From an uncultured Atopobiaceae bacterium (GTDB lineage: Bacteria > Actinomycetota > Coriobacteriia > Coriobacteriales > Atopobiaceae): a stretch of 46,624 nt of DNA. Where the stretch lies: positions 1 to 46,624 of the forward strand of contig CANQOF010000015.1 in NCBI GenBank assembly GCA_947625405.1. The letters run 5' to 3'. How positions within the stretch are numbered: the stretch's first letter is position 1; every line of letters starts with the position of its first letter. Of the stretch, positions 7,773 to 10,123 are shown piece by piece. Position numbers and translations under genes: made by a program. The notes beneath the pieces were generated by a model that saw only the letters and a program-made list of their open reading frames with translations, was not told the DNA's origin and ran no database searches.

Positions 7773-8549
7773 TCATCCCCGCTCTCGCGGCGTCTTTTCC
7801 TGGAGCCCGAAGCCCTCGAGGTAGCGAGCCGCGGAGCGGTTCATCTCCGCCGCGAATCCAGAGGCGTACTTGCGATCATGGAATGCGCGCACCCATTCCT
7901 CGAAGCGCTTCGCCCCAAGGCGCGAGGAGAGCATCTCGCGCGCCCTCGCGCCCGAGAGCGGCTCGTAGGCGTCCTCCATGACCACGCAATCCGCGGGTTC
8001 GCGCAAGGGCTTCGGGCGCCGAAGCTGCTGCTCGGTGGGGTAGCCGAAGACGAGCATGACCGCGGGCACCACCTGCGCAGGGAGCCTCAGGAGCTCGCAC
8101 ATCGCCTCGTGCTGCTCGAGCACATCGCCGATATAGCACGAACCCACTCCCTCCGCCCACGCGGCGACTACGGCGTTTTGCGCGGCGATCGCGGCATCGG
8201 CAAAGGCGAGCAGGAGATCTCCCGGCCCCGCGGGACGCGAATCGATTCCCGCCTCCTCGTAGACCGCTCGCCATTTCTCGCAATCCGCGAGGAAGACGAG
8301 CACCATCTTCGCCTTCGCGATGAAGGGCTGGTGGTCGCAGAGCTCGGCGAGCGCCTCGCGCTCGCGCTGGTCTCTCACGTCGATGATGGAGTAGAGCTGT
8401 TGGTTTCCCGCGGTGGGCGCCTGGAAGGCCGCCTCGAGGATGCGAGCGCGCACGTCCTCGGGGATCTCGCGATCCTCGAACGCCCGCACGCTCTTCCTCG
8501 CCACGAGCTCTTCGAATACTCGATGCCCGCCCTGCGTGAACTCACTCAT
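7773..8549 (-). CDS. Nitroreductase family flavoprotein
   Basis: FMN-dependent NAD(P)H oxidoreductase of the nitroreductase fold, 258 residues. Typical motifs are RKSVRAFEDREIP at the N-terminus (FMN-phosphate binding), FQAPTAGNQQ, and GVGSCYIGDVLEQ in the middle. The physiological substrate cannot be told; quinones, flavins or nitro compounds are usual for the family. ATG 8549 lies eight bases after GGAGGAG and overlaps the end of folD by eight bases, so it is translated with folD. It could supply or consume reducing equivalents linked to folate chemistry, but that is inference from context only. Confidence 0.87.
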   Translation of the reverse strand: MSEFTQGGHRVFEELVARKSVRAFEDREIPEDVRARILEAAFQAPTAGNQQLYSIIDVRDQREREALAELCDHQPFIAKAKMVLVFLADCEKWRAVYEEAGIDSRPAGPGDLLLAFADAAIAAQNAVVAAWAEGVGSCYIGDVLEQHEAMCELLRLPAQVVPAVMLVFGYPTEQQLRRPKPLREPADCVVMEDAYEPLSGARAREMLSSRLGAKRFEEWVRAFHDRKYASGFAAEMNRSAARYLEGFGLQEKTPRERG

Positions 8550-9411
8550 CCTTCGCTCTCCTCCCCGATTGCGCGATGCGCTCTGCCGCTCGCACCGTCT
8601 GCGCCACCAACGTCGCCGCCGTCACGGCCCCCACGCCCCCAGGGACGGGCGTGAGCGCCCCGGCCACCTCGGCCACCTCGGGCGCCACGTCGCCCGTGAG
8701 CCTCCCATCCTCGCCGACGTTGATGCCCACGTCGACCACCCAGGCCCCCGGGGACACCATCTCGGGCGTCACGAACCCCGCCACGCCCACGGCGCAGGCG
8801 ATGAACTCGCTCCCTCGGCAGATCTCGTCGATGCGAGGGGTCTTGGAGTGGCAGAGGGTGATAGTGGCGTCCCGCGAGGTGAGAAGCGCCTGGAGGGGGC
8901 GCCCGACCACGGTGGAGCGGCCGAGCACGCAGCCCACGCGCCCTCGCACGTCGTAGCCGTAGTGGTCGAGGATCTCGAGGACCGCCCTCGCCGTCGCGGG
9001 GGCAAAGCCGTCCGACCTCCCCGAGAAGAGTTGCGCAAGCGCGCGCTCCCCCATGGCGTCGACATCCTTCTCCGGCGCGATGGCGAACGCCGCCTCATGC
9101 TCGGAGAGCCCCTCCGCAAGCGGACGGAGAAGGAGGATCCCCGAGACGGCGGGGTCCGCCGAGAGATCGCCGAGAAGCTCGTTGAGCTCGCGTTGCGGCA
9201 CGCGGCGCGTGAGCTCGATGAGCTCGACCGCGATGCCGCTCGCCTCGGCGGCGCGGGAGATGCCGCGCAGGTAGGCGGTATCGGAATCGTCTTTTCCCAC
9301 CCGCACGACCACGAGCTTCACTTCGACGCTCTTGAGGGCGAGGCGAGATGCCCTCGCGCGCGAGGCATCGTTCAGCGCTTTGGCCACGGGAGCGCCCTTG
9401 AGCGATATCAC
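8542..9411 (-). CDS. folD: FolD-type methylene-tetrahydrofolate dehydrogenase with altered catalytic residues
   Basis: Member of the 5,10-methylene-THF dehydrogenase/methenyl-THF cyclohydrolase family, 289 residues from GTG 9411. The C-terminal NAD(P) part is intact (VLGRSTVVGRP, CHSKTP, WVVDVGINV, LTPVPGGVG). The N-terminal active site is not standard. Tyr47 is kept, but the Lys four residues later (Lys54 in E. coli) is Ile51, and the QLPLP motif reads LRPLA, losing the Gln. The KDVD Asp is kept. By family knowledge that Lys is needed for the cyclohydrolase step, so this enzyme may be a dehydrogenase only. The start overlaps the stop of the preceding cyclodeaminase gene (GTGA), so the two are co-translated. 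The longer open frame upstream is just the overlapping gene in another frame. Confidence 0.88.
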   Translation of the reverse strand: MISLKGAPVAKALNDASRARASRLALKSVEVKLVVVRVGKDDSDTAYLRGISRAAEASGIAVELIELTRRVPQRELNELLGDLSADPAVSGILLLRPLAEGLSEHEAAFAIAPEKDVDAMGERALAQLFSGRSDGFAPATARAVLEILDHYGYDVRGRVGCVLGRSTVVGRPLQALLTSRDATITLCHSKTPRIDEICRGSEFIACAVGVAGFVTPEMVSPGAWVVDVGINVGEDGRLTGDVAPEVAEVAGALTPVPGGVGAVTAATLVAQTVRAAERIAQSGRRAKDE

Positions 9412-10052
9412 GAGAGGAGCTCCCTTTCCACTCGCGCGCCGATCTCCGCGCTGTAGAGCCGCACGAGCTCGCGCTGGTGCGCCTCGAGCGCCTCGAGGCG
9501 GCGCGCGAGCTCGGTATCGGCCATCCACGACGTGTTCGCGAGCACGGTGGCGCTCGCGCCGTTCGCGGCGGCCTCGAGAAGCGCCGCGGAGCAGATGATG
9601 TCGCTTTTCGCGAGCGTGCTTCCCTCGCGCGAGAGCCAGTCGAGGTCCTCTAAGGCCTCGCCCGCGCAGGCGAGCATCTCGAAGGGGGCGCGGCAGGCCT
9701 CCTCGAGCGCGCTCGCGAGCACCCGCGCGCGCGTTGACCTCTCGGCCCCGGTGCCTCGGGGCATCTTGAGGGCACGCGCCACATCCGCGTAGCCCTGCGC
9801 ATCCTGTTCGGCGAGGGCCATGAAGCGCACGCGCAGGCCCCCGAGGTGGTCCCATGTCTCGCGCATGCGCGCATGCACTGCCTCGTAGCGGGGGTTTTGC
9901 GCGGTGATGGCAGCGACCATCTGCGCCTGGGCGCATCCAAGCGCGCCGGCGACCGCCGAGGAGGCACCGCCTCCCGGGGTGGGTTCCTGCGAGGAGAGCG
10001 CGTCCATGAACTCCTCGAGCTGCTCGGTCTTCACCCTCGACGCCCCTGCCAT
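9408..10052 (-). CDS. fchA: Stand-alone formimino-THF cyclodeaminase / methenyl-THF cyclohydrolase domain protein
   Basis: Cytoplasmic all-helical protein of 214 residues matching the C-terminal FTCD domain alone. The motif PTPGGGASSAVAGALG near residue 25 is diagnostic. Family members convert 5-formimino-THF to 5,10-methenyl-THF plus ammonia, and FchA-type forms hydrolyse 5,10-methenyl-THF to 10-formyl-THF. No formiminotransferase domain is attached or adjacent. ATG 10052 follows GGAG. It is first in an operon with folD (4-base overlap) and the nitroreductase gene, so it works in one-carbon folate interconversion. Given the substituted FolD, a cyclohydrolase role is the attractive reading. 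Confidence 0.88.
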   Translation of the reverse strand: MAGASRVKTEQLEEFMDALSSQEPTPGGGASSAVAGALGCAQAQMVAAITAQNPRYEAVHARMRETWDHLGGLRVRFMALAEQDAQGYADVARALKMPRGTGAERSTRARVLASALEEACRAPFEMLACAGEALEDLDWLSREGSTLAKSDIICSAALLEAAANGASATVLANTSWMADTELARRLEALEAHQRELVRLYSAEIGARVERELLS

Positions 10053-10123
10053 GGCGCACTCCTTCCTCGCGATACTCGCGCCGTGATTCTACGAGCAGAA
10101 TCTCCATGGCGTCACCGCATGCT

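Follow-up and report, generated by a model that had tools for sequence, protein, structure and literature searches.

The window, i.e., the whole 46,624-nt stretch of DNA analyzed here, carries on its minus strand a folD gene directly preceded by fchA, which encodes a stand-alone FTCD_C protein (Table 1). At the junction CTCTCGTGATATCG both genes overlap by the 4 nt GTGA, with the folD start inside the fchA stop codon, as an earlier note on this DNA had described, and translation of the two genes is likely coupled through this overlap. The nitroreductase-family gene adjoining folD is probably part of the same transcript; a homologue of it also adjoins the fchA/folD pair in three further loci (L087, L070, and L072). 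One promoter-like site, a consensus match only, was found upstream of fchA against 0.2 expected, and an inverted-repeat scan of the locus revealed nothing notable.

Table 1. Positions of genes and sites at the fchA/folD locus.
Feature	Coordinates	Strand	Remarks
Nitroreductase-family gene	7773-8549	minus	overlaps folD stop by 8 nt
folD	8542-9411	minus	289 aa, GTG start; lacks Lys54 and Gln98 (E. coli numbering)
Leu95-Arg96 codons	9124-9129	minus	position of Gln98-Leu99, LRPLA loop
Ile51 codon ATC	9259-9261	minus	position of catalytic Lys54
Tyr47 codon of folD	9273-9271	minus	numbered from Val1
fchA stop/folD start overlap	9408-9411	minus	GTGA, 4 nt
fchA	9408-10052	minus	214 aa; FTCD_C domain by itself, putative methenyl-THF cyclohydrolase
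Weak promoter-like site upstream of fchA	10086-10115	minus	9/12 consensus matches

Both Pfam domains of the FolD family, THF_DHG_CYH (PF00763, 84.1 bits) and THF_DHG_CYH_C (PF02882, 166.1 bits), were detected in FolD above the cut-off. Against the NCBIfam models for bifunctional FolD, the best score among the matches listed was 253.5 bits and thus below the cut-off of 411. An AlphaFold model with a mean pLDDT of 95 matches FolD/MTHFD structures of the PDB at Z values near 40, which supports the predicted FolD fold and speaks to the fold only.

The active site was compared with E. coli FolD by alignment to a reference sequence, the key residues of which agree with PMC5688156. Ile51 aligns with the catalytic Lys54 and Leu95-Arg96 of the LRPLA loop with Gln98-Leu99, so that FolD deviates from bifunctional FolD in both characteristic residues, the Lys of YxxxK and the Gln of QLPLP. 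Tyr47 (E. coli Y50), Asp118 of the KDVD motif (E. coli D121), and the NAD(P)-site motifs GRS...GRP and TPVPGGVG are kept. What the earlier note had read from the sequence, namely Ile in place of the catalytic Lys next to a retained Tyr, an altered QLPLP loop, and intact NAD(P) and KDVD motifs, is thereby borne out, the key point in the loop being the exchange of Gln98 for Leu with an adjoining Arg. Furthermore, R165, H188, and S189 correspond to the Arg, His, and Ser that bind at the 2′-phosphate site of the human enzyme (PMC3368264), which points to a preference of FolD for NADP.

The functions of the two lost residues are described for E. coli and human enzymes. E. coli FolD K54N retains about 19% dehydrogenase and no detectable cyclohydrolase activity (PMC5688156), in agreement with the earlier statement that the Lys is needed for the cyclohydrolase, and Q98H retains about 8% dehydrogenase and about 1% cyclohydrolase activity (PMC5688156). 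Such mutants survive because the hydrolysis is also spontaneous, although growth of K54N is very slow (PMC5688156). In human DHCH, Lys56 and Gln100 are described as acting together (PMC3368264). A contribution of Lys56 to the dehydrogenase reaction is described as well (PMC3368264), and this counts against a dehydrogenase-only FolD. The loss of Lys54 and Gln98 with Tyr and Asp kept is a pattern that a dehydrogenase-only enzyme could show.

FTCD_C was the only Pfam domain found in FchA (155.5 bits, above the cut-off), and the residues invariant across 168 aligned FTCD_C sequences including Methylobacterium FchA (PxGGG, Met, Asp, Ser-Asp, and Asn) are kept. Its score against the NCBIfam model MthfCyhylaseFchA is 100.4 bits and thus below the cut-off of 275; since this model appears narrow, the name FchA is used here for likeness and not for membership. 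The source genome, which is 98.5% complete, contains one folD, one fchA and, on another contig, one fhs. A second canonical folD, which according to the earlier note would have argued against a split of the two reactions, was searched for in this genome and is absent. FTCD_N was not found above the cut-off in the source genome nor in any of the 149 Coriobacteriia genomes, so that a formiminotransferase of the FTCD_N type does not supply FchA with formimino-THF.

Within the Coriobacteriia, PF04961 was detected in 58 of the 149 genomes, all of which belong to the same order as the source. The association of Lys loss with fchA that the earlier note proposed to look for was found throughout the class: all 59 FolDs from fchA genomes lack the Lys (Ala, Ile, or Leu at position 54; Phe, Leu, or Met at position 98), and both Lys and Gln are present in each of the 61 FolDs read from fchA-less genomes. 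As Ile was also found at the Lys54 position in a second genome of the source genus (G096), and as the 59 FolDs are uniformly Lys-less, the loss in the source FolD is not a chance event. At 49 of 58 Coriobacteriales loci, fchA and folD overlap (20 loci) or are separated by at most 30 nt, and the coordinates give the gene order fhs-fchA-folD in most relatives. The genus Collinsella (g16) is split, with fchA and a Lys-less folD in some genomes and a canonical folD beside fhs, without fchA, in others. The canonical Collinsella FolD shares 64% identity with canonical FolDs of other Coriobacteriia against 45% with the Lys-less type, which suggests that the two arrangements were exchanged as units.

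A contig scan beyond the class yielded 43 canonical FolDs lacking an fchA within 4 kb, along with Lys-less FolDs that either have a nearby fchA (29) or do not (nine); a canonical FolD with fchA within 4 kb was not found among these. All nine genomes of the last group have a single folD, and eight of them carry fchA elsewhere. In total, 142 FolD sequences lacking both Lys54 and Gln98 were collected, some genomes being sampled twice; the Tyr50 and Asp121 equivalents are kept in all of them, and for 140 the genome contains fchA. The finding that would have spoken against the split, Lys loss without fchA in relatives, is thus missing for these 140 and occurs in G152 alone, which accounts for both exceptions. 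G152 (L132 and L217) is a 1.4-Mb Coriobacteriales MAG with a Lys-less FolD in which no fchA was detected, owing either to an incomplete assembly or to a true exception; 30 of 33 genomes of its family have fchA.

In the phylum of genome G154, which by its named loci comprises mostly clostridia-like Bacillota, fchA is present in 116 of 199 genomes. Here, canonical FolDs (type KQD) occur with or without fchA, and FolDs that have lost both Lys and Gln always occur with it. The converse rule, that fchA implies a Lys-less FolD, had to be rejected, as 36 sampled Bacillota genomes combine fchA with canonical FolD only; because many Bacillota do so, FchA must have other uses too. Two further FolD types were observed. 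KED-type FolDs, in which Lys is kept and Gln98 is replaced by Glu (e.g., L234, L235, L239, L241, and L356), all come from fchA genomes (30/30), mostly with adjacent genes in the order folD-fchA, and possibly represent a second route to the same division between dehydrogenase and cyclohydrolase. Paralogs with a D121E exchange in the KDVD motif and Gln or Ile for Lys (L280, L284, L288-L300, L302, L307, L398, and L405) usually occur beside a canonical copy; G306 contains three of these paralogs but neither a canonical folD nor an fchA.

A FolD tree was calculated with FastTree, which is approximate, leaving out the columns of the trait itself. The source FolD falls into a clade of 63 double-loss representatives spanning Coriobacteriales and clostridia (support 99). 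The KED clade (support 97) contains another double loss. A third one is represented by the YMMMD clade with Megasphaera and Allisonella (support 99). The tree thus indicates at least three supported origins of the double loss, to which a few singletons may add more. Because most Lys-less FolDs form one clade, the co-occurrence counts are not independent and represent a few independent events followed by long co-inheritance, not 142 trials. Only one independent Lys-less/canonical pair is permitted by the tree, and a sign test on such pairs hence has no power.

We consider it highly probable (about 0.87) that the locus encodes a FolD restricted to the dehydrogenase reaction together with a separate methenyl-THF cyclohydrolase, and that FchA very probably performs the cyclohydrolase job lost by FolD. 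The two reactions that link 5,10-methylene-THF to 10-formyl-THF would be shared out within the pair. The dehydrogenase step would stay with FolD, which would keep its sites for folate and NADP; lacking Lys54 and Gln98, FolD could not, or could hardly, hydrolyze 5,10-methenyl-THF, and FchA would take over this hydrolysis. Together with fhs, a route connecting formate, 10-formyl-THF, methenyl-THF, and methylene-THF would be completed, in a flux direction that we infer. That FolD and FchA serve one pathway is suggested by the tight spacing, the order fhs-fchA-folD, and a FolD-FchA fusion in genome G100 (L090 1001-2552, G100:C9), where both form one open frame of 562 codons besides a separate fchA-folD pair (C8). 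The split put forward in the earlier note is therefore supported by the genomic tests, with the qualifications that the co-occurrence is one-way and to a good part reflects one inherited clade and that acetogens provide a precedent.

A FolD that is still bifunctional, with another residue such as Arg96 replacing Lys54 and FchA being redundant or differently used, is very unlikely. Arg does occur at position 96 in 110 of the 142 double-loss FolDs and is not among the commonest residues there in canonical FolDs, but Ala, Met, Ser, or Cys occupies this position in other double-loss FolDs, which makes it less likely that Arg96 generally substitutes for Lys. Such a FolD would also leave unexplained why fchA accompanies the Lys/Gln loss, and the lack of detectable cyclohydrolase activity in E. 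coli K54N (PMC5688156) argues against it, although that mutant lacks such an Arg.

It is likewise highly unlikely that FchA acts as a formimino-THF cyclodeaminase in amino-acid or purine breakdown and that the missing cyclohydrolase step of this organism proceeds spontaneously. The cyclodeaminase domain of FTCD is of the FTCD_C type as well, and E. coli lives without the cyclohydrolase since the reaction can be spontaneous (PMC5688156), but the slow growth of K54N (PMC5688156) and the adjacency of fchA to folD and also fhs do not fit this explanation. A cyclodeaminase fed by FTCD_N is rejected by the lack of above-cut-off matches to this domain in the 149 Coriobacteriia, which concerns formiminotransferases of the FTCD_N type only. 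That FolD has lost both activities and is decaying or has another role is extremely unlikely: its score to the catalytic-domain family is low, and divergence of FolD copies is seen elsewhere in the D121E paralogs, but it is the sole folD of a nearly complete genome, it has an intact frame that still encodes Tyr, Asp, and the NAD(P) motifs, and the Lys-less type is conserved across the order.

For a dehydrogenase-only FolD accompanied by FchA, residues 54 and 98 should provide a sequence test to tell it from bifunctional FolD. This class is missed by public annotation, since RefSeq names a Lys-less Collinsella FolD (L424, NZ_OY725717.1) bifunctional and its neighbor "cyclodeaminase/cyclohydrolase family protein"; the record, from Collinsella aerofaciens, is a 900-kb sequence filed as a plasmid. 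The distinction matters for how one-carbon metabolism is modeled in gut anaerobes and acetogens. As the residual dehydrogenase of E. coli K54N is completely insensitive to carolacton (PMC5688156), the Lys-less signature predicts bacteria with a carolacton-insensitive FolD. The repeated joint losses together with a natural fusion offer a clean case for studying the division of a bifunctional active site. Tentatively, the loss of Lys54 and Gln98 might mark a large unnamed subfamily of dehydrogenase-only, FchA-dependent FolDs of anaerobes, which would have arisen several times, be exchanged as an fchA-folD unit or fusion, maybe form a channeling complex, and be intrinsically insensitive to carolacton-type inhibitors binding Lys54.

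Split enzymes as a kind are already known, since monofunctional dehydrogenase and cyclohydrolase proteins are reported in Acetobacterium woodii and Clostridium formicoaceticum, with a bifunctional enzyme in Moorella thermoacetica (PMC9124964). In open-licence papers, no report was found that describes the Lys/Gln-loss signature, its inheritance together with fchA, or its multiple origins. The residue signature, its spread through the Coriobacteriales, and the predicted insensitivity to carolacton would be the additions made here.

In comparison with known systems, the bifunctional E. coli FolD (1B0A, 5O22) shares with the source FolD the fold, the folate Tyr and Asp, and the NAD(P) site, but differs in Lys54 and Gln98, which are Ile and Leu here, at 30% identity. 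Yeast MTD1 (1EDZ) has a FolD-type fold (Z 29.5) and is dehydrogenase-only by name; it belongs to a distant branch and is likened by fold and name. The best solved relative of the source FchA is the FchA of Methylobacterium extorquens (7VG4), a stand-alone FTCD_C protein with the invariant residues in common. The usual dehydrogenase partner of that FchA is MtdA and not FolD. Adjacent fchA and folD genes are well known from acetogens (PMC3584212, PMC6925170), including Acetobacterium (PMC6925170). A. woodii and C. formicoaceticum use two proteins for what bifunctional FolD does alone (PMC9124964), as proposed for the source pair; these enzymes differ in their host, which is a member of the Coriobacteriales here, and are likened by reported activities, not by residues 54 and 98. 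The source genome has a single folD together with fchA, as would be expected for a split pair of the acetogen type.
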